Shown piece by piece: positions 2,699-13,222 of a stretch of DNA of 20,942 nucleotides (its first letter is position 1; each line of letters opens with the position of its first letter). A program made the translations under genes and the position numbers. Under the pieces are notes generated by a model. That model saw only the letters and a list, made by a program, of their open reading frames with translations. It searched no databases and was not told where the DNA came from. The DNA is from a virus. The stretch spans positions 1 to 20,942 of the IMG/VR virus record IMGVR_UViG_3300007539_000283. One strand, 5' to 3'.

Positions 2699-3703
2699 AT
2701 GTCATTTTCAGACACATATGATCCAACAAAGTCCGTACTAAGCGGACCCGGTTCTGCTGTTTCCAATCGTGAAGACTTGACAGATGTCTTGTCAATTCTT
2801 GCACCTGAAGAAACGCCAGTTCTTTCTTCTGCTTCAAAGCAGAAAGCGTCATCCACTTTCGTAGAGTGGACAGTAGATTCATTAGCCGATGTAAGCACAG
2901 CAGGTGTTTCAGAAGGTGCTGATGTAACATCATTCACAGATAAATTCTCAGGTCGTGCTCGTCTTGGTAACTACACTCAGAAGTTCCGTAGAGACTACAT
3001 GGTTTCTGACCTACAAGAAGCAGTTGATTCTGTTGGGCCTGCAAAGATTGCTCAAGCAGAAGCAAAAGCTATCCGTGAGTTAAAGCGTGATGTCGAAGCT
3101 ACATTATTATCAGACAATGAAATGTCTGCAGAAAATGGAGTAGGCACACCTTATAAACTTCGTGGATTAGGTAAATGGATTCAGAATGGTGCACAAGCAA
3201 CTAACCCTGTTCCAGAATCATTCCGTACTCCTTTGAGTTCTATTAAAGATGATTCTTCTACATTGTTAGAATCAGAGTTCAATGACTTGATTACATCAAT
3301 CTACCGTGAAACAGGAACAACTAACAGCCTTACATTAATAGCTGACACCGGATTACGCAGAGTTATTTCTGACTATGCTCGTATTGGTGCTGGTTCTAAT
3401 GATGTTCGTGAGTTCAATGTAAGTGGAGATTCAGGTAACATTCGTTTATCTGTTGAGCTTTACCAATCAGATCACGGAGTTGTTTCAATCATCAACATGA
3501 ATCCTGATTGTGCTCCTGATACAACTAACAAGGACACAGGTTACTTAATCAACCCTGAGTACTACGGTATTCATGAATTGATTCCAATGGGCTCTACTCG
3601 TCTACCAAATCTTGGTGGTGGTGAGCGTGGTTATGTAGATTGCTCACTTACATTAGGTGTGTATCATCCACAAGCACATGGTAAAATCACAACAATTGCT
3701 TAA
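2699..3703 (+). CDS. Major capsid protein, SU10/DUF5309-like
   Basis: This 334-residue protein should form the icosahedral head shell. It matches what I know of the SU10-type major head protein family (formerly DUF5309): an N-terminal segment REDLTDVLSILAPEETPV at residues 24-41, EWTVDSLAD at 56-64, and the GRARLGNYTQKFRRDY region at about 85-100, followed by a mixed alpha/beta body of the HK97-fold type with a loop around RGLGKWIQNGAQATNPVP. Length is normal for the family. Codons here are relatively G+C-richer and more regular (CGT, GGT) than in neighbouring genes, consistent with high expression. The ATG at 2699 follows the scaffold stop by 12 bases and lacks a Shine-Dalgarno sequence. Next come the decoration-like gene and a strong terminator. 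Confidence 0.85.
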   Translation: MSFSDTYDPTKSVLSGPGSAVSNREDLTDVLSILAPEETPVLSSASKQKASSTFVEWTVDSLADVSTAGVSEGADVTSFTDKFSGRARLGNYTQKFRRDYMVSDLQEAVDSVGPAKIAQAEAKAIRELKRDVEATLLSDNEMSAENGVGTPYKLRGLGKWIQNGAQATNPVPESFRTPLSSIKDDSSTLLESEFNDLITSIYRETGTTNSLTLIADTGLRRVISDYARIGAGSNDVREFNVSGDSGNIRLSVELYQSDHGVVSIINMNPDCAPDTTNKDTGYLINPEYYGIHELIPMGSTRLPNLGGGERGYVDCSLTLGVYHPQAHGKITTIA

Positions 3704-5549: not shown

Positions 5550-8216
5550 ATGTCTTCAGAACATCTAGCATCTGCCCAAACGGAGTTAAAGGGCGATCTT
5601 GGTGCGTCCTGGAATATCTTGGACGGTGCTTCTGCTAACTATACTGATCTAGGAGTAGCTCGTAGATTTGGTGATTCTGCAGCCGCCTACTCATTGCGAG
5701 ATATTGGTGCAATGAATGGCTCTGTTGTCAGAGTTCGTAGAGAACCAAATGATACTACAGCTGGAATAGATGATGAAGAAAGATTTTCGGCTAATCAAGT
5801 ACAAAGTGGTGTATTAGAAGATTGGGTAAACGGCAAACTAGAGACTACGCTACCAGCAGATGTAGACACAGCCGCAGCTGCTTATAGTCTTCGTAAGGTA
5901 AAAGCTAGTTATGCAAATAATGCAGTTCGTATTCGTAGAAGCTCAGATGATATTGAGGTAAATGTAGCTTTTGATTCAGATGATAAGGTAAGTGCAAGCT
6001 CTCCTATTACAGATGGTGGAACAGAGTTGACACCAGACCCAGATGCAGATTTAGGAAGCACAACTGCTACTACCCTTGGAGATTTTTTAACTGAAGATAT
6101 TAATATATTTACTGATTCAAGCAGTCAATCTTGGGCAAACATTCGCTCAACAGATAGTTTTGAAACAAGTACAGCTCTAGGTGGCGAAGTAAATTACAGA
6201 AAATTTACACCTAATAGTGGAACTGGAACTTCTGCTTTATTTGGTATAACTTCATTCTTTGATGTTTCTGCATCAAGCACATATACAATAAGTGGTCAAG
6301 TATATGTTCCTAGTGGACAGACTACTGTCAATGCATTTAAAATTGTAAATGGCACTTCTGGTTCTTCACCTTCCTTGAGTGGTGCAACTAACACAGTACC
6401 AGCTACCGACCAATGGGTAGATTTTTCTTTCACTAGTGCAATACCGACTGCTACACAACTTTATATCAATGCTGCAAAAGACCAAAATGCTTTCTTTTCA
6501 CCCAATGGAAGTGACTTCATTGCATTCAAGGACATAACGGTAACTGCAACAGATAGTGGAGCTACTGTCCACACTTGGTACGACCAAGCTGGGTCAAACG
6601 ATGCAGTTCAAGCGACTGCTGGTAGTCAACCAAAAATTGCAGAGAATGGGGCATTACTTGATGGCATTAAATTTAATGCAGATGTAAGTGGAAGTAGTCC
6701 AGACTTTTTAGAAACAGACTCTAAGCTAGGAGATTCTACAGATTTTTTTGTAACTATAGTTATTGGTGAAGCTCAAGGACAAGATGCATTTGGTGGCATT
6801 ATAACATCAAGGAGTGCGGCTGATGAAGGTTTTGCTTTTGGGTTAAATGCCTCTGAAAAAGCACAAGCATTTATTTATTCCTCTGGAGGTAATACAAATG
6901 ATACTTCAGATGAAGTTGTTGGTACTCCTAAAAGATTACTTACTTTAGATAAAGATAGTACAACCATAAATGCAAGTGTTAATTCTTCCCCTGCATTTAA
7001 TTTTACTAGCAATACTATGGGTTCTGTTACTCAAGATAAGAGTTTCATAGGAGTTGGTGGCAGAACCGATACCACACCAACTACATTAGGATTAAGGGCT
7101 AATTTAAATGAGTTAATATTTTACAACTCAGACCAAGCTAATAATAGATTTTTAATTGAGTCTAATATTAATAATCATTATAATCTATATAATGATGAAA
7201 ACGAGTGGGACGATGCTACAAATACTGAATGGCAAAATAATGTACAAGATGGTACAACAACATTTACGGCAAATGGTAAAGATGGATTTACTATAACTGC
7301 CGATGGAGATAATATATGTAGCTTTAAATATAGATTTACATCTCCATCAACTGCTACTAATGACTACTACAAAGTTAGTTTTTTTGTAGATGATCCAAAT
7401 GGATTATTTGATGATGCTCAACTAAGGTCTACTGCAACTGGTTCTGGTGCTACTGCACAAACGATAACAAATGGATTTAATTCATTATCATTAAGAACTG
7501 GAGCTAGTTTTGAATTTATGACTATTAATTTAGATGGTAATGGTTCTACTAAAACAGCTACATTATCTAATTTTAAAATATCTCGCATAGCTCGTGATGG
7601 TTTCATAGAAACTTGGTACGACCAAAGTAGTAGTGGTAATAATGCTACACAGACAACAGCTAGTCAACAACCAAAAATTGTAGACAATGGAGGTATTGTT
7701 AAAAATGTTAAAGGCTTTCCATCAGTAAAATTTGAATCAGCTAACTTAACAGAATTAGATATTGGTTTATTAATTAGCAACCTTAATTCAGTAAGTGCAT
7801 ATGTAGTAACTCAAAAAGATTCTGGAGATACCAATAGAGTAGCTGGATTTACACAAGGTGTATCTAGCGATAACTCAAGATTTTATTTTCCTTTTTATAG
7901 TGGAGGCACTACTCCAAATCTTGGGTATAACGATAGTGCAGCAAAAGTAAGTTTTGGAATTACATTAACTGGAACTTGCAATTTGTATTCAGCATTCTCT
8001 GGAGACACAAACATAGAAGCATTTAAGAATGGTTCTAGTGTAGGAACAACAGCTTTGGTAGATCAAGCAGTTACTGCTACAGATAGTAAAATAGGTCAAT
8101 TATCTAATGGATTTAGGTTTGATGGAGTTATATCTGAAATATTTTTAACAACCCAAAAACTGCAAAGTGATGCAGATACAATAAATACAGAGGTAAAAAG
8201 TTATTACAATTTATAA
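5550..8216 (+). CDS. Large tail fibre with duplicated arabinofuranosidase-B-like motifs
   Basis: This 888-residue protein is the longest complete gene here and is probably a fibre or tailspike. Two N-terminal copies of an AAAYSLR motif followed by VRVRR or VRIRRSSDD occur at about residues 44-67 and 108-134. Two copies of a TWYDQ motif followed by Asn/Gln-rich stretches and QPKI (W343-YDQ-346 and W689-YDQ-692) each precede a segment resembling a concanavalin/LamG-type beta-sandwich. AYSLR...VRR...WYDQSG...QPKI is the signature I associate with the catalytic domain family of fungal alpha-L-arabinofuranosidase B, which also occurs in phage fibres. Between the copies are Ser/Thr/Asn-rich regions like carbohydrate-binding modules. 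It may bind or cleave surface glycans; whether catalytic residues survive cannot be judged by eye. Confidence 0.75.
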   Translation: MSSEHLASAQTELKGDLGASWNILDGASANYTDLGVARRFGDSAAAYSLRDIGAMNGSVVRVRREPNDTTAGIDDEERFSANQVQSGVLEDWVNGKLETTLPADVDTAAAAYSLRKVKASYANNAVRIRRSSDDIEVNVAFDSDDKVSASSPITDGGTELTPDPDADLGSTTATTLGDFLTEDINIFTDSSSQSWANIRSTDSFETSTALGGEVNYRKFTPNSGTGTSALFGITSFFDVSASSTYTISGQVYVPSGQTTVNAFKIVNGTSGSSPSLSGATNTVPATDQWVDFSFTSAIPTATQLYINAAKDQNAFFSPNGSDFIAFKDITVTATDSGATVHTWYDQAGSNDAVQATAGSQPKIAENGALLDGIKFNADVSGSSPDFLETDSKLGDSTDFFVTIVIGEAQGQDAFGGIITSRSAADEGFAFGLNASEKAQAFIYSSGGNTNDTSDEVVGTPKRLLTLDKDSTTINASVNSSPAFNFTSNTMGSVTQDKSFIGVGGRTDTTPTTLGLRANLNELIFYNSDQANNRFLIESNINNHYNLYNDENEWDDATNTEWQNNVQDGTTTFTANGKDGFTITADGDNICSFKYRFTSPSTATNDYYKVSFFVDDPNGLFDDAQLRSTATGSGATAQTITNGFNSLSLRTGASFEFMTINLDGNGSTKTATLSNFKISRIARDGFIETWYDQSSSGNNATQTTASQQPKIVDNGGIVKNVKGFPSVKFESANLTELDIGLLISNLNSVSAYVVTQKDSGDTNRVAGFTQGVSSDNSRFYFPFYSGGTTPNLGYNDSAAKVSFGITLTGTCNLYSAFSGDTNIEAFKNGSSVGTTALVDQAVTATDSKIGQLSNGFRFDGVISEIFLTTQKLQSDADTINTEVKSYYNL
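6573..6587 (+). repeat. Direct repeat copy 1 (WYDQ-coding, in fibre gene)
   Basis: A 15-base stretch coding for TWYDQ is identical to 7611-7625 in the same gene. Flanking DNA is diverged, so either the motif is under strong constraint or the repeat marks an old internal duplication. Confidence 0.75.
7611..7625 (+). repeat. Direct repeat copy 2 (WYDQ-coding, in fibre gene)
   Basis: This is the second copy of the 15-base TWYDQ-coding stretch at 6573-6587, identical base for base and in the same reading frame, 1038 bases downstream. Confidence 0.75.
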
Positions 8217-8477: not shown

Positions 8478-8648
8478 ATGGAAGCACTTATTAGTCACCT
8501 TAAAATTTGGGGCATAGTAGGAGTAACTCAGTTTACTGTAGCTATGGATGATTTTGGAACAGAAGCACAAATTATAATGCATTTGTCAGCAGCAGTAGCA
8601 TCATTGTCTATTGCCTGGTGGCATATATTTAGAAGGGGAGACAAATGA
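8478..8648 (+). CDS. Small membrane protein, holin-like
   Basis: This is a 56-residue protein starting at ATG 8478, one base after the previous stop. An upstream in-frame ATG at 8424 would overlap the preceding gene by over 50 bases and is less likely. It has a moderately hydrophobic stretch at about residues 8-22 and a clear membrane segment at about 34-50 (HLSAAVASLSIAWWHI), ending in the basic FRRGDK. The size, topology and position before a second holin-like gene suggest a holin, antiholin or other lysis-timing protein. Its stop overlaps the next start as ATGA. Confidence 0.6.
   Translation: MEALISHLKIWGIVGVTQFTVAMDDFGTEAQIIMHLSAAVASLSIAWWHIFRRGDK
8634..8640 (+). promoter_or_regulatory. 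Purine-rich ribosome binding site before holin-like gene
   Basis: AGGGGAG lies 4 bases before the ATG at 8645, within the last codons of the preceding gene. It is one of the few Shine-Dalgarno-like sequences in the window and supports the 8645 start. Confidence 0.5.
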
Positions 8649-9052
8649 CAACAGAACTATTAGCAATGCTCGGAGGAGGATTTTCCGGGTTTGTATTTAA
8701 GCTTATTGGTACAATGGTGCAAAATCAAGCAGCTATTACCGAAGGACTTATCAAAAAACAAAAAGCATCAGACGAAAGTGCAGATGCTGCAGCAGCTAGG
8801 GTAGATGCCTTTGGTGCTTGGACAAGACGAATTATTGTACTTACTGTACTGTTTGGAGTAATTATTGCACCATTTATCTTAGCTCATAGCGAAGAAGGTG
8901 TAACAGTAGCAAGTGAATACAGTAAGTGGTGGGGATTAGCTTCAGGAACAACTTATCAAACATTGCACGGATATATTATTCTTCCTGAGATCAAAACTGC
9001 AGTAATTAGTATAATTAGTTTTTACTTTGGATCAGCCGCAGTAAGTAAATAA
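8645..9052 (+). CDS. Holin-like membrane protein
   Basis: This 135-residue protein has an N-terminal glycine-rich hydrophobic or amphipathic stretch (about 4-26), a charged Ala/Asp-rich linker (about 37-56), a strong membrane segment at about 62-80 (RRIIVLTVLFGVIIAPFILA) and a second at about 108-131 ending in FYFGSAAVSK. The layout (amphipathic N-terminus, charged coil, two hairpin-like membrane segments, C-terminal Phe-Gly) resembles the 3-TM phage/GTA holin family. It overlaps the upstream small membrane gene by 4 bases. No endolysin is encoded next to it, so the holin call rests on topology alone. Confidence 0.6.
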   Translation: MTTELLAMLGGGFSGFVFKLIGTMVQNQAAITEGLIKKQKASDESADAAAARVDAFGAWTRRIIVLTVLFGVIIAPFILAHSEEGVTVASEYSKWWGLASGTTYQTLHGYIILPEIKTAVISIISFYFGSAAVSK

Positions 9053-9053
9053 T

Positions 9054-9248
9054 ATGAATTGCAAAAATTGTAAATGGATAAAAAGACTGCCAAAATTAAA
9101 CTCAAAGAACTGCGTGATTCTTTGTCCGAAGTCTTGGACGGAAAGAGTTATGAAAGTGCTGATGAGATTAAAGAACAGTCTCAAGAAGCTATACAACAGG
9201 CTAGGTCGGCTAGTAAGCAACTTAAAAAGTCGCTTATTGAAAAAATAA
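9054..9248 (+). other. Possible overlapping small Cys-rich ORF
   Basis: A 64-codon frame starts one base after the holin-like stop (TAATATG, the start context used by many genes here) and overlaps the 280-residue gene in another frame. The product begins MNCKNCKW and has Cys at residues 3, 6, 20 and 24, spaced like a small zinc-binding site, then a basic helical C-terminus. It may be a real overprinted gene, a leader feeding reinitiation at 9074, or chance. Confidence 0.25.
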
Positions 9249-9916
9249 AAGACTTACCTGTTATACAAAAAGTAAGCGAACTAGGTACTGCTGGAAGTGT
9301 TGCTGTAAGTACAGCCGCAGTTGCTCAGACAACGGTTGCGATAGATCAAACAGAAGTCTTCGTGGCAAATATCGCAAACGATGTTGTGGAAGAGCGTTTT
9401 GAAGTTCCAGGGTTCATCGACACTTTTATTGATTTCCACGAGCTTAATGATTGGGGTCAAGTTGTACTTATAGAAAAGGTTTCCGAGGCACAGGCTTTTG
9501 TTGAGTCGGCTTCCGAACAACTACAGACCTCCACTCAATCCTCTGATCCACAGGATTCCAAACCTGTACCTTCTGCTTCTTCACATAATTCTTCCTCCGA
9601 AAAATCTTCTCAAAGCGATCAGCCTTCCAATACTGATAAATCACAAGAGTCACAAAAAACAGAGCAAGAATCAAAAGGAGAAAATTCATCTAAAAATAAC
9701 GGTTCACAAGAAGATAACAAAGGTAAGCAAGAGCAAGCCCAAGAACAAAAAACTGAAGGTAAGACAGAATCTCAAGAAGGCGAATCATCATCGCAGTCTG
9801 ACACAAATTCAGAACCTGTCAAGTCTAGTATTCCCAAAGTTGAAACACCTTTTATGCCAATGAATGATGACATTAAACCACATTCAAGCATAAGACAAGT
9901 ATCCCCTGTATCATGA
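9074..9916 (+). CDS. Ser/Gln/Glu-rich protein of unknown function
   Basis: This 280-residue protein has two parts. Residues about 1-150 are helical: a charged coiled-coil-like N-terminus (KKTAKIKLKELRDSLSEVLD), an Ala/Val-rich segment (about 70-95) and an acidic region with PGFIDTFIDFHELNDWG. Residues about 155-255 are low-complexity and hydrophilic, rich in Ser, Gln, Glu and Lys, probably disordered. The last 30 residues have Pro and Met. The start at 9074 is fixed by an in-frame stop at 9071-9073; it has no Shine-Dalgarno sequence. The low-complexity part uses TCC/TCT-rich codons and differs in base composition from its neighbours. Its stop overlaps the next start (ATGA). It sits among membrane genes, but no membrane segment is clear and I do not recognise a family. 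Confidence 0.65.
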   Translation: MDKKTAKIKLKELRDSLSEVLDGKSYESADEIKEQSQEAIQQARSASKQLKKSLIEKIKDLPVIQKVSELGTAGSVAVSTAAVAQTTVAIDQTEVFVANIANDVVEERFEVPGFIDTFIDFHELNDWGQVVLIEKVSEAQAFVESASEQLQTSTQSSDPQDSKPVPSASSHNSSSEKSSQSDQPSNTDKSQESQKTEQESKGENSSKNNGSQEDNKGKQEQAQEQKTEGKTESQEGESSSQSDTNSEPVKSSIPKVETPFMPMNDDIKPHSSIRQVSPVS

Positions 9917-10077
9917 TAGAATATATATTCACAAACTACAAAGACGATTTATTAGCAATGTCATTTGCTTATATTGGTATAATATCAATTATTATGATGT
10001 TTTTGCCTAAAGACAATTTCATCAAAAAAATATTTAAAGAATTTGCATCAATATTTACATCCTTTTTCAAAAAATGA
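9913..10077 (+). CDS. Tiny membrane protein (54 residues)
   Basis: This short frame overlaps the preceding gene (ATGA at 9913-9916) and the next one (ATGA at 10074-10077), a compact arrangement that strongly supports translation. The product has a membrane segment at about residues 12-31 (with AYIGIISIIMMFLP) and a basic, Phe-rich, amphipathic C-terminus (FIKKIFKEF and ending SFFKK). The size and topology fit a small holin, antiholin or lysis-modulating protein, but the sequence does not show which. Confidence 0.6.
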   Translation: MIEYIFTNYKDDLLAMSFAYIGIISIIMMFLPKDNFIKKIFKEFASIFTSFFKK

Positions 10078-10361
10078 GTCACGAAGCACAAACACGCCCT
10101 TTACTGATAACAGAGCCTGAATACGATTGGGACGACAGTATAACATCAACAGTAACAAACTTAAACTATTTCTTTGTTCCATCTTTACCTGAATGGGCAT
10201 ATAGTGAATACGATGGATTAATATATGAAGGAGTCACATATGAGTGGGCTGAAGTAGATTATAGACTTTCGGTAGATTATAGTGGAGTTCCTGAACCTTC
10301 ATTTGTTGGTTTATTTATGGGATTTTGCTTATTAGCTTTAACATTAATTAAAAGAAAATAA
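10074..10361 (+). CDS. Small protein with PEP-CTERM-type C-terminal sorting signal
   Basis: This 95-residue protein ends with VPEPS (residues 72-76), a hydrophobic stretch (about 77-91) and KRK at 93-95. That is the three-part PEP-CTERM tail recognised by exosortase in many Gram-negative bacteria: Pro-Glu-Pro motif, membrane helix, basic end. The rest (1-71) is acidic and Tyr/Trp-rich (for example EYDWDDS, WAYSEYDGLIYEGVTYEW). No N-terminal signal peptide is seen, and an in-frame stop at 10035-10037 leaves no room for one, unlike normal PEP-CTERM proteins. The start overlaps the preceding stop. It may be a tail-anchored membrane protein in the lysis region, or a host-derived surface protein fragment. 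Confidence 0.6.
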   Translation: MSHEAQTRPLLITEPEYDWDDSITSTVTNLNYFFVPSLPEWAYSEYDGLIYEGVTYEWAEVDYRLSVDYSGVPEPSFVGLFMGFCLLALTLIKRK

Positions 10362-10362
10362 T

Positions 10363-10584
10363 ATGCCAGAAACAAGTAAACCAAGTATATCAGCATCTTT
10401 AGTTCCGGTTGGAAGATTAGTTAAAGTAGCTAAACCTTTTGTGCGTAAATTAATTAAAGGATACAAAAGTGAAAAACATTTTATAGATACTGTAGCTAAA
10501 TCTACTGCAGGAGCAGGAGGAGTAGCTACTGTTACTAATAAGCTAACAAAACAACCAAACGATAAAAAACGAAAGGATAAATAA
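10363..10584 (+). CDS. Small basic protein
   Basis: This 73-residue, strongly basic protein starts one base after the preceding stop. It is Lys/Arg-rich with helical segments (VGRLVKVAKPFVRKLIKGYK), an Ala/Gly-rich middle (STAGAGGVATVT) and a basic tail (KQPNDKKRKDK). It has no Cys. It is the first of a run of tiny basic proteins (10363-11398); a DNA-binding or virion-packaged role is possible but inferred from charge only. Confidence 0.55.
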   Translation: MPETSKPSISASLVPVGRLVKVAKPFVRKLIKGYKSEKHFIDTVAKSTAGAGGVATVTNKLTKQPNDKKRKDK

Positions 10585-10586
10585 TT

Positions 10587-10676
10587 ATGGCACACGCAGG
10601 TAAAGGAAGTTGTGGGGAAAAAAAAGGTGGCAAGAAAACAAGTCGTACAGTAATGCGAGGTAAAATAAAATACTAA
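10587..10676 (+). CDS. Micro-protein, Lys/Gly-rich (29 residues)
   Basis: A 29-residue frame starts two bases after the preceding stop (TAATTATG context) and its stop overlaps the next start (TAATG). The product begins MAHAGKGSCGEKKGGKK, with one Cys, and has 9 lysines and 2 arginines. Support comes from the tight packing and the resemblance of the composition to its neighbours. Function unknown. Confidence 0.45.
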   Translation: MAHAGKGSCGEKKGGKKTSRTVMRGKIKY

Positions 10677-10804
10677 TGTCTAGGTTAATGTCAGTTGTAG
10701 TATTTGGTAAGCCAAAAGGGGCCTGTTGCCCTGCTTGTGCTGCTGAACAAGAAGCAAAGCAAATAGCAAGAAAAACAAGTTATGGCAAAAGGAAAAAAGT
10801 CTAA
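10676..10804 (+). CDS. Micro-protein with CCPAC motif (42 residues)
   Basis: The start overlaps the preceding stop as TAATG, and the 3' end overlaps the next gene by 23 bases. The product has a hydrophobic start (MSRLMSVVVFG), a Cys cluster at residues 17, 18 and 21 (CCPAC), then a basic tail (SYGKRKKV). The cysteine cluster could bind a metal or form disulfides. Not recognised as a known family. Confidence 0.45.
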   Translation: MSRLMSVVVFGKPKGACCPACAAEQEAKQIARKTSYGKRKKV

Positions 10805-10949
10805 CAAAATATGTCCTGCAGGTATAGCATGGGCTAGAAGAACTTTTGATAAGTATCCATCAGCATACGCTAATATGGCTGCTTCAAAATACTGTAAAGA
10901 CCCTAATTACGCAAAGGGTGCAAAGGGTAAACGCAAAAAGAAAAAATAA
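10782..10949 (+). CDS. Small basic protein, ICPxGxAWA type (55 residues)
   Basis: This 55-residue basic protein contains CPAGIAWARRTFDKYPSAYA (residues 11-30) then NMAASKYCKDPNYAKG, ending in a Lys/Arg-only tail. It resembles, from memory, small proteins with the same Cys-Pro...Ala-Trp-Ala...Tyr-Pro-Ser-Ala-Tyr-Ala pattern that recur in marine phages near structural genes. The two Cys (11 and 38) could pair or bind metal. It overlaps the upstream gene by 23 bases in another frame, which is unusual but consistent with the compact layout. Role unknown; a virion component that contacts DNA is possible. Confidence 0.6.
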   Translation: MAKGKKSNKICPAGIAWARRTFDKYPSAYANMAASKYCKDPNYAKGAKGKRKKKK

Positions 10950-10955
10950 TTTATT

Positions 10956-11153
10956 ATGGCATTTTTAGAAAAAAGTAGAAGAGAACAAATTCAAGATGCA
11001 ATCAAAGGCAACCAAGAGTTGACTCGAAAAGCAAATGATATGATTAAGCATAATTCTGTTGATAAGGAGTTTCAGAGATTTCTAATTAAGGATCAAAAAA
11101 GACTTGATGAAGAAATTAGAACACTTAGAAAAATGCTTAAAGAAACTGAGTAA
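10956..11153 (+). CDS. Small coiled-coil protein
   Basis: This 65-residue protein is almost entirely charged and helical (EKSRREQIQDAIKGNQEL, then EFQRFLIKDQKRLDEEIRTL), with a heptad-like Leu/Ile pattern consistent with a coiled coil. It has no Cys or membrane segment. Its stop overlaps the next start as TAATG. Function unknown; it sits inside the run of small basic proteins. Confidence 0.55.
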   Translation: MAFLEKSRREQIQDAIKGNQELTRKANDMIKHNSVDKEFQRFLIKDQKRLDEEIRTLRKMLKETE

Positions 11154-11398
11154 TGGGCGAGTTAGCAAAATGGAGAAGGCAAAATTGGGTAAGGATTGGT
11201 ACAGATGGATCAATTAAAGGACCTTGTGGCACATCTAAAAACAAGAAGAATCCGGACAGATGCCTTCCATTGGCTAAAGCTAGAAGTCTATCCAAGGCTG
11301 AAAGAGCGTCAACTGCTAAGAAAAAGAAAAGAGCAGGATCAAAAGGAAAACAATTTGTATCAAATACGCCAAAAGCAAAAGTAAGAACTAAAAAGTAA
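11153..11398 (+). CDS. Small basic protein, DUF6321-like
   Basis: This 81-residue basic protein has the pattern WVRIGTDGSIKGPCGTSK, then KKNPDRCLPLAKARSLSKAE, then a run of Lys and Arg (ASTAKKKKRAGSKGK). This arrangement (GxIKGPCGTSKxKKNPDRCLP, Cys at residues 25 and 37) matches what I recall of the DUF6321 family found in marine and cyanobacterial phages. The two cysteines may form a disulfide or metal site, and the Lys-rich C-terminus suggests nucleic-acid contact. The start overlaps the previous stop as TAATG. Biological role is not established to my knowledge. Confidence 0.65.
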   Translation: MGELAKWRRQNWVRIGTDGSIKGPCGTSKNKKNPDRCLPLAKARSLSKAERASTAKKKKRAGSKGKQFVSNTPKAKVRTKK

Positions 11399-11399
11399 A

Positions 11400-12248
11400 A
11401 TGCCCTCAAAAGCAAATGTTCCTAATTTAATTGATGGAAAAACGCTTACAAATGATAAGGGTGTTCTTAAATTAAAATCAGACTCTATTCAAATAAATGG
11501 AGTTAGATGTAAAGTTGGTGCAGGAGTAACTATTGCTGATGGTATTACTAGTCCAATATCAAATAATGATTTACAAAATAATTCTTTTAGTATTAATGGC
11601 GAAACTAAGGAATTAGGATCAGATGTTGGAACTTTTGGTGATCACTTAAAAGCATTTTGTTTTACATCTGATGCTCGTGATGGTCGACTTAATGTTGGTG
11701 GTCAATATTGGATGAATTGGGAAATAATAAGTGATCCACATAATCTTATAGAAATTGAAAATTCAGCATGGTCTCTTCAGGCTATAAATCCAATTAACAA
11801 CAGAATAAAAATTAAACAAACTGGTTTGTATTTATTAGAAATAAATTTTATACATCACGAACCATTAACATCAACAGCTTATATACCACTTAATTATGCA
11901 GTAACTATAGGTCCAGCTGACGGAACTCCTTCCAATAATTTGAGTTTTATAAATATACCAGCTCAATATGTAAATCATCAACAAGCGTTTTTAACTCAAA
12001 GTGAAGGAATTGATCAGGGACAATTAAGAGGTATTAATGGTAATCACGCATACTCGGATTCTTTTAGAAAAGTTAGGCTATATATAGATGTTCAATATAC
12101 AAATAATGCATATAATATTGATATAGCTAATGGTCTAGCATCAAATAAAGGAAATGTTTTTTCTTTATCTGCATCGCCACAGGCAAATTCATTTTATCGA
12201 TGGGAAGGTGTAGGATTAATAGAACTAACAAGATTAGGAGATACATAA
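11400..12248 (+). CDS. Fibre-like protein, first of two tandem paralogues
   Basis: This 282-residue protein pairs with the next gene. The N-terminal ~75 residues align with that paralogue: NDKGVLKL (about 18-25), then an IxING-type turn, PISNNDL (52-58) and a strand-turn-strand SFSINGETKELG. This repeated short beta motif is common in phage fibre shafts. The C-terminal half is beta-rich and jelly-roll-like, with W...ISDPHNLIEIE, NNRIKIKQTGLYLLEINF and RLYIDVQ segments as in trimeric C1q/TNF-like fibre heads. It ends in ELTRLGDT, as its paralogue does. It is probably a trimeric fibre or receptor-binding protein. No Shine-Dalgarno sequence before its start. Confidence 0.65.
   Translation: MPSKANVPNLIDGKTLTNDKGVLKLKSDSIQINGVRCKVGAGVTIADGITSPISNNDLQNNSFSINGETKELGSDVGTFGDHLKAFCFTSDARDGRLNVGGQYWMNWEIISDPHNLIEIENSAWSLQAINPINNRIKIKQTGLYLLEINFIHHEPLTSTAYIPLNYAVTIGPADGTPSNNLSFINIPAQYVNHQQAFLTQSEGIDQGQLRGINGNHAYSDSFRKVRLYIDVQYTNNAYNIDIANGLASNKGNVFSLSASPQANSFYRWEGVGLIELTRLGDT
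11450..11476 (+). repeat. Near-identical repeat copy 1 (NDKGVLKL-coding)
   Basis: This 27-base stretch differs by a single base from 12303-12329 in the next gene, while surrounding DNA is diverged. It codes for NDKGVLKL near the start of both fibre paralogues. Confidence 0.7.
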
Positions 12249-12252
12249 TATG
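12228..12252 (+). repeat. Near-identical repeat copy 1 at gene junction
   Basis: This 25-base stretch covers the last codons, the stop and the following ATG, and differs by one base from 12955-12979. It includes TTAGGAGAT, whose AGGAGA acts as a Shine-Dalgarno sequence for the next gene. Confidence 0.75.
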
Positions 12253-12975
12253 AGTAAAAAAATTCAACAAATACCAAAGGTAACGGATGGAGTATCAATT
12301 AAAAATGATAAAGGTGTTCTTAAATTAAATAAAAACTTTGTTAAAATTAATGATACTCATGTAAAGTTAGGAGATTCCATTACTGTAGGAAATGGTTTAT
12401 CTTTGCCTATATCTAATAGCGATTTAGCAAATAGCTCTATAACAGTTAACGGAAGTGCCCTTAATTTAGGTGACAGCATTACTGTAGCATCTGCTTTACC
12501 AAAATGCCATTTATGGACTGCTAGTCAAGGAAGTGGTTTAAAGATGGATGGATGGCAAAAAATATCAGATCCTGATAATTTAGTTACTATTAGTAGTCAA
12601 ACTAATAGAACAAACAATAAAATAACTATAAATAATACAGGGCTGTATACTATAGATTTAAATTTTACTATATCTCCTCCTAATGTAAATGGAATATATG
12701 ATACTTTTGTATGTAGTGCAGTTGGCAGTACAAACACAGTTACCTCGTTAACATATAATGGTATACCACTAAATATACCTGGTAATGATTTTTTATTAAG
12801 TCCGGATACTGCCTTGGATACCTTTACAAGAGGTGTAAAATTATACATAGATGTTACCGATGTAACCGGCACAAAGCACATAGGTGAAAATGGCAATAAT
12901 TTTTCTATGTATTTTAACGAAACTGGAAGTAAATACATGGGTCACATAGAAATTACAAGATTAGGAGACACATAA
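12250..12975 (+). CDS. Fibre-like protein, second of two tandem paralogues
   Basis: This 241-residue protein is homologous to the preceding one: the same N-terminal order (NDKGVLKL, KINDTHVKLGD, PISNSDL, ITVNGSALNLGD) and a matching beta-rich C-terminal domain (KMDGWQKISDPDNLVTIS, GLYTIDLNF, KLYIDVTD), ending in EITRLGDT. It is about 40 residues shorter, mainly in the middle of the head domain. It starts after AGGAGA in the end of the first paralogue. The pair looks like a tandem duplication followed by divergence of the head domains, suggesting two receptor specificities or a heteromeric fibre. Confidence 0.65.
   Translation: MSKKIQQIPKVTDGVSIKNDKGVLKLNKNFVKINDTHVKLGDSITVGNGLSLPISNSDLANSSITVNGSALNLGDSITVASALPKCHLWTASQGSGLKMDGWQKISDPDNLVTISSQTNRTNNKITINNTGLYTIDLNFTISPPNVNGIYDTFVCSAVGSTNTVTSLTYNGIPLNIPGNDFLLSPDTALDTFTRGVKLYIDVTDVTGTKHIGENGNNFSMYFNETGSKYMGHIEITRLGDT
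12303..12329 (+). repeat. Near-identical repeat copy 2 (NDKGVLKL-coding)
   Basis: This is the second copy of the 27-base stretch at 11450-11476, with one base difference. Confidence 0.7.
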
Positions 12976-12979
12976 TATG
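12955..12979 (+). repeat. Near-identical repeat copy 2 at gene junction
   Basis: This is the second copy of the 25-base stretch at 12228-12252, covering the end of the second paralogue and the ATG of the next gene, again carrying AGGAGA upstream of the start. Its presence at both downstream junctions marks the edge of the duplicated unit. Confidence 0.75.
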
Positions 12980-13222
12980 GCAGATAAGAAAAAAATGAAA
13001 TGCAATGTACCTCGCAGAGAAGTCAAGGGAGGTAAGAAATTTGTTGTAAAAGCTTGCCAGGGAGGTAAGGAAAAAATTGTTAGATTTGGTGATGCCAATA
13101 TGACAATTAAGAAAAACAGACCTGCTCGCAAAAAAAGCTACTGTGCAAGAAGTGGTGGAATAAAAGGCAAATCTAATAAATTATCTGCAAACTATTGGTC
13201 AAGAAGAGCTTGGAATTGCTAA
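12977..13222 (+). CDS. Small basic Cys-containing protein
   Basis: This 81-residue protein is very basic, with four Cys at residues 9, 27, 56 and 81 (the last residue). It runs KKMKCNVPRREVKGGKKFVV, then KACQGGKEKIVRFGDANM, a Lys/Arg-rich linker, and LSANYWSRRAWNC. The KKMKCNxPRR...KACxGGKEKIVRFG order matches small proteins I recall from marine phages, where they are encoded among tail or structural genes. It has a Shine-Dalgarno-like AGGAGA in the preceding gene end. Separated from the other small basic genes by the fibre pair. Function unknown; metal or nucleic-acid binding is possible. Confidence 0.65.
   Translation: MADKKKMKCNVPRREVKGGKKFVVKACQGGKEKIVRFGDANMTIKKNRPARKKSYCARSGGIKGKSNKLSANYWSRRAWNC

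Follow-up and report, generated by a model that had tools for sequence, protein, structure and literature searches.

The 95-residue protein encoded at positions 10074–10361 of the window (the whole stretch of viral DNA analysed, a complete IMG/VR virus record of 20,942 bases) is best interpreted as a cargo protein of the phage that exploits the PEP-CTERM signal of the host or at least imitates it. The fuller form of this reading, to which a probability of roughly 0.52 was assigned, is that a mobile three-gene cassette carries the protein as its cargo and that the protein lies in the membrane with its N-terminus out and its C-terminus in, where its Pro-Glu-Pro (PEP) motif would be periplasmic, be recognised by a host exosortase and send the protein towards the surface. 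Retention of a PEP-CTERM-like tag, together with its exchange as a unit, suggests that phages use host protein-sorting machinery. On a wider proposal, it is judged about as likely as not that several tailed-phage lineages took over the exosortase/PEP-CTERM pathway by means of a mobile cassette, surface delivery, tails exchanged perhaps to match host exosortases and an N-out version free of a signal peptide. To our knowledge, exosortase sorting is known solely as a host pathway for surface proteins that are associated with exopolysaccharide, and a literature search found no description of PEP-CTERM proteins in phages.

The window protein and its three-gene cassette

The window carries the half of a podovirus-like genome that is devoted to structural genes; its nearest named relative was Phage C75C1 (capsid 64% identical). 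The gene of interest was absent from the cultured or named phages C75C1 and C48C1, neither record of which states a host. Features of the window were as follows.

2699–3703: major head protein (phrog_1328, E=1.4e-61)
8645–9052, + strand: 135-aa membrane protein (phrog_38283, no assigned function), upstream flank of the cassette, present also in related phages without the cassette
9074–9916, + strand: cassette gene 1, P280, 280 aa; charged N part, hydrophobic/Ala-Val segment at about 70–90, long low-complexity C part rich in Ser, Gln, Glu and Lys
9913–10077, + strand: cassette gene 2, TM54, 54 aa; one membrane helix, basic amphipathic C part ending in KK
10074–10361, + strand: cassette gene 3, PEP-tailed protein, 95 aa, ATG start
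10074–10286, + strand: acidic N part of the tailed protein, residues 1–71, net charge -12, with a conserved DGL.YEG..Y.W.E.DYRL segment
10287–10298, + strand: VPEP motif, residues 72–75; P73 and E74 invariant across the family
10299–10349, + strand: hydrophobic segment, residues 76–92
10350–10358, + strand: basic end KRK, residues 93–95
from 13223: head-closure-like protein
from 15546: tail protein

Downstream of the cassette, at 10363–11398 and again at 12977–13222, a series of tiny Lys-rich, Cys-containing proteins was noted (e.g., MAKGKKSNKICPAGIAWARRTFDKYPSAYANMAASKYCKDPNYAKG...), which are kept in most related phages including C75C1. The adjacent proteins at 11400–12248 and 12250–12975 have an N-terminal repeat in common (DG..L/I.NDKGVLKL....IN...VK.G), resemble each other at the C-terminal end, and are possibly a duplicated receptor-binding protein.

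The tripartite tail that the earlier note had described on this protein was confirmed. Thus, the C-terminus, which reads ...SGVPEPSFVGLFMGFCLLALTLIKRK before the stop codon (terminal residues also given as VPEPSFVGLFMGFCLLALTLIKRK), comprises VPEPS, approximately 17 hydrophobic residues and KRK. The Pro-Glu-Pro and the C-terminal basic cluster of a PEP-CTERM tail were therefore both present (VPEPS and KRK), and the membrane helix expected after PEP, of at least about 14 residues, was represented by the 17 hydrophobic residues and by one confident AlphaFold2 helix (75–94) directly after the motif. In the same prediction, made with 37 homologues, residues 1–28 were disordered and residues 40–65 formed a small hairpin-helix unit. 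By inspection, a signal peptide was not visible, the N-terminus being not hydrophobic. An upstream start that might supply one was ruled out because the frame, which opens at 10038, is closed by the in-frame stop at 10035–10037 that the earlier note had reported, and no ATG, GTG or TTG was found in the 12 codons between that stop and the ATG.

The TM54 reading frame overlaps the P280 gene and, through ATGA, the tail-protein gene. A programmed -1 frameshift at AAAAAATGA, fusing TM54 to the tail protein, was considered and rejected; several relatives read AAGAAA, AAGAAG or AAACGA there, so that a mere overlap of start and stop codons is the more economical interpretation. A search of IMG/VR viral contigs with a TM54 profile built from four copies returned 134 relatives, 80 of which were fetched. 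A protein with a PE-type tail directly followed TM54 in every sufficiently long, readable locus, with the ATGA overlap in those of the short form described below. P280 homologues were found with its own profile in 55 loci, and genes 2 and 3 came next wherever the contig was long enough; in L240, two additional membrane genes lay inside the trio. The cassette occurred at well over 100 loci of IMG/VR. As a unit the trio is accessory; capsid-related phages without it exist (C75C1, L056, L059, L067 and L077), it occurs also in phages with a capsid protein only about 45% identical (G055 and G056) and in records of 35–42 kb with an unrecognisable capsid protein (G004, G010 and G011), and bearers were interleaved with non-bearers in a capsid tree.

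One record of the last group carried, on cassette contig L247 (G004; 6965–7963), a tyrosine integrase with TTTGCTTTGG-type repeats upstream of it and what we take by eye to be a T7-like RNA polymerase. This phage is probably temperate; examination of the integrase flank and a tRNA scan revealed no attachment site. Plasmid and phage records contained no homologue, and in PHROGs the cassette proteins had no family, the sole match being a low-complexity one to P280 at chance level (E=0.051).

Conservation and exchange of the C-terminal tail

Conservation of the motif was evident from a comparison of 76 distinct complete tail proteins, related sequences rather than independent events, all of which (76/76) contained [VI]-P-E. 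The third motif position was P in 53, giving full PEP, and otherwise L (10), M (6), S (4), Q (1), V (1) or F (1). Codons for the invariant Pro (CCA 56, CCT 10, CCG 7, CCC 3) and Glu (GAA 43, GAG 33) varied, and such synonymous change without replacement indicates that both residues are under selection. The conservation in related phages for which the earlier note had asked was thus found, and the homologues that it had thought would speak against the tail, those keeping the body but losing PEP and the basic end, did not appear. In a tail-blind search, the query pattern of which lay solely within the body (YxWxE[VLF][DS]YR[LF]), [VI]PE and a basic end were retained by 64 of 64 distinct short homologues and full PEP by 57. 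Similarly, among open reading frames of the fetched loci with a C-terminal membrane tail, [VI]PE preceded the helix in 82/82 cassette proteins and in none of approximately 91 others, which is to be read as a contrast and not as a p-value since these frames are mechanical and related.

The 76 proteins were of two architectures, 47 short (about 80–110 aa) and 29 long (about 195–207 aa). By inspection, the long forms have a signal-peptide-like N-terminus (e.g., MNRILIAFLFVSSILAS or MYIYLQKIKFLLTPLFVASVAWG), and their ectodomain is a predicted beta-sandwich. The solved folds nearest to it were PPC-like or carbohydrate-binding domains (ColH collagen-binding domain, 3JQW; Tk-SP, 3AFG), with a weak Foldseek match only (best E 2.6e-3, TM-score 0.32 on query and 0.50 on target), and Pfam, NCBIfam and PHROGs gave no sequence match to the long-form ectodomain. 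Short forms carry a different, smaller ectodomain, which is itself conserved. Since relatives at the same locus have a signal-peptide-like N-terminus, the absence of a signal peptide, which the earlier note had emphasised, holds for the window protein but not for the system, and is a derived or alternative architecture.

Despite these unrelated ectodomains, nearly the same tail was noted across architectures, the long protein of L118 ending GLLMGLCLLTLTLIKRK and the short protein of L115 ending GLFMGLCLLTLTLIKRK. Conversely, L097 and L110 shared 99.0% identity across the 204 nt of the N part and diverged completely right after GTACCAGAGCCA (VPEP); their tails were thus exchanged at PEP while TM54 stayed alike. 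Tail classes combined freely with N-part classes. The tail thus behaves as a module.

Profile scores, distant relatives and possible hosts

With regard to the PEP-CTERM models that the earlier note had suggested as a check, the result depended on the protein examined. Thus, the window protein scored 12.4 bits against PF07589 (E about 0.2), or 13.9 in a genome-wide search, below the curated cut-off of 20.7 bits, and no match to TIGR02595 (cut-off 16) was reported at E<=1, whereas relatives passed one or both cut-offs. L102 was above both (21.8 for PF07589 and 21.4 for TIGR02595), L101 (16.8) and L219 (17.5) exceeded that of TIGR02595, and G011 (21.6, genome-wide search) exceeded that of PF07589. 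Among 37 short relatives, 22 matched PF07589 and 16 matched TIGR02595 at E<=1, while in the main group the long forms (IPEMSDTG..., IPELKDTG...) mostly had near-zero scores or no match to these models. Across 21 phage records there was at most one PEP-CTERM match per record, always cassette gene 3, and two of these were above the Pfam cut-off.

Canonical tails were evident in more distant relatives. Scanning IMG/VR for codons of the VPEP[ST] type with TYA after them yielded 31 stretches, four of which (L373, L387, L390 and L391) encoded homologues of the long form (32–33% identity, E=2e-23 and 6e-21). These have a clear signal peptide (MYKWLGLSLLLATPAFA; by inspection in L373, L387 and L390) and textbook VPEPSTYAL tails of the VPEPSTYALILGWLLFLYVATKRR or VPEPSTYALILGWLLFLYVATKRRTD type, and in L387, L390 and L391 a TM54 homologue was retained before the long form (38%, E=5e-13). 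A gene of L390 matched T4-like phages and a gene of L373 resembles, by eye, T4 gp32; L373, L387, L390 and L391 thus represent another phage lineage. Through homology of the cassettes, these relatives link the window protein, which lacks a signal peptide, to a bona fide PEP-CTERM architecture.

An exported beta-barrel-like protein was found after the distant cassettes where sequence remains; on the T4-like contigs L390 (2080–5847), L387 and L373 (minus strand), the cassette is followed by such a protein of 384 aa ending in Phe. L390 also contains a family 11 glycosyltransferase near the cassette (PF01531, E=3e-23), and the region may be a larger surface-modifying island. Separately, unrelated small proteins of viral contigs L367, L368, L377 and L394 (30–73 kb) and L366 (78 kb) combine a signal peptide with an Asp-rich stretch and end in a canonical VPEPSTYA tail (23.8 bits against TIGR02595 for that of L366); they are possibly a second set of phage PEP-CTERM proteins.

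No exosortase (PF09721) was encoded in the 21 phage records, so that a phage-borne enzyme was discarded for these. A capsid-protein search of genome contigs identified a single host-labelled contig, L164 (8 kb), from the Rickettsiales-titled MAG MED657, which falls by its capsid gene within a cassette-bearing clade. Its GC content was 0.44 as opposed to 0.28–0.39 in other pieces of the MAG, and binning is therefore doubtful and mis-binning probable. No EpsH was found in the order of this MAG (Rickettsiales), a TIGR02595 search of the same order found no PEP-CTERM protein with the controls silent too, and the long form was not found in 385 sampled genomes of its class, in a search that had no positive control. 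Were the binning right, the exosortase reading would lose ground, as the order shows no exosortase, and for this reason confidence was kept near one half.

Alternative readings and relation to known systems

The strongest competing reading, although somewhat doubtful, is that the protein forms an envelope or lysis complex of the phage together with P280 and TM54 and is its plain single-span anchor, in which Pro-Glu caps the helix or contacts TM54 and exosortase has no part. Constant adjacency to TM54, the stop of which overlaps the tail-gene start in short forms, is consistent with such an anchor, as are the location among late membrane genes, the travel of the cassette as a unit, the mostly sub-threshold profile scores, the unfixed third Pro and the absence of exosortase from the order of the doubtful MAG. 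However, the residue before PE was always V or I and not the S, T or D of a helix N-cap, [VI]PE was confined to the cassette proteins among tailed frames, tails were exchanged at PEP with TM54 unaltered, and distant cassettes carried textbook tails. It is unlikely that the short protein instead acts as a decoy, occupying host exosortase and blocking the sorting of host surface proteins during infection. A small acidic ectodomain without a signal peptide would suit this role, and variants without the third Pro could bind yet resist cutting, but the long forms at the same locus, with their predicted folded domain and signal-peptide-like N-terminus, fit cargo better, and conservation of the short ectodomain also argues against a decoy. 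Chance resemblance, in which PEP stands in a hydrophobic tail by accident, or a lone motif, draws on the weak score of the window protein (E about 0.2) and was rejected in view of the family-wide motif with synonymous codons, the contrast with other tailed frames, the outcome of the tail-blind search and the relatives above cut-offs.

In the preferred reading, several tailed-phage groups would carry a mobile membrane cassette of three genes with cassette gene 3 as its cargo, and the product of gene 3 would span the inner membrane once, its acidic N part lying outside and its KRK end inside. In all 47 short forms the net charge was -8 to -16 before PEP and +1 to +4 after the helix, and this pattern, with the positive-inside rule, predicts an external N part and a cytoplasmic end. 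The PEP motif would thereby lie at the periplasmic face, as in host PEP-CTERM proteins, for which the model before exosortase acts also has the N part outside and the C-terminal end in the cytoplasm (PMC1569441). Long forms would reach this state via the signal peptide. Translocation of a short acidic N-tail needs no signal peptide in some single-span proteins (YidC/Sec N-out proteins), and short forms would probably be inserted by such direct translocation. Host exosortase may then recognise the PEP tail and cut or transfer the ectodomain towards the cell surface. Given the interchangeable ectodomains, such cargo would most naturally serve at the infected cell's surface, where the ectodomain would most likely alter the envelope, for example to keep further phages from adsorbing or to loosen the exopolysaccharide on release.

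If substrates are phage-borne, exosortase sorting becomes a virus-host interface. The tails, in which PE is fixed, the third Pro varies and the tail type is swapped, would then offer small natural substrates for testing exosortase recognition, and they would hint at the hosts of an abundant environmental phage group.

Compared with known proteins, the short form resembles Pf3 coat, a single-span, YidC-inserted N-out phage protein with an acidic N-tail, in its short acidic N-tail, one helix, basic C-end and lack of a cleavable signal. Unlike Pf3 coat, it is not known as a virion coat, and the outer end of its helix carries a conserved PEP motif. Compared with the PEP-CTERM domain (TIGR02595/PF07589), the phage tail likewise comprises PEP, a membrane helix and a basic end at the extreme C-terminus. 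Host PEP-CTERM proteins have little in common outside the tail (PMC1569441), and the module-like occurrence of the phage tail on unrelated ectodomains, acidic and of exported type with no homology beyond the tail, follows the same pattern. In contrast with PEP-CTERM proteins, approximately 97% of which have a signal peptide (PMC1569441), the phage protein is phage-borne, occurs once per genome in a fixed three-gene cassette, has a short form without a signal peptide and varies at the third Pro. Because it lacks a signal peptide and its score is below the curated cut-off, the window protein is not classed as a PEP-CTERM protein; anatomically it nevertheless works like one, and other members of its family reach the curated score.
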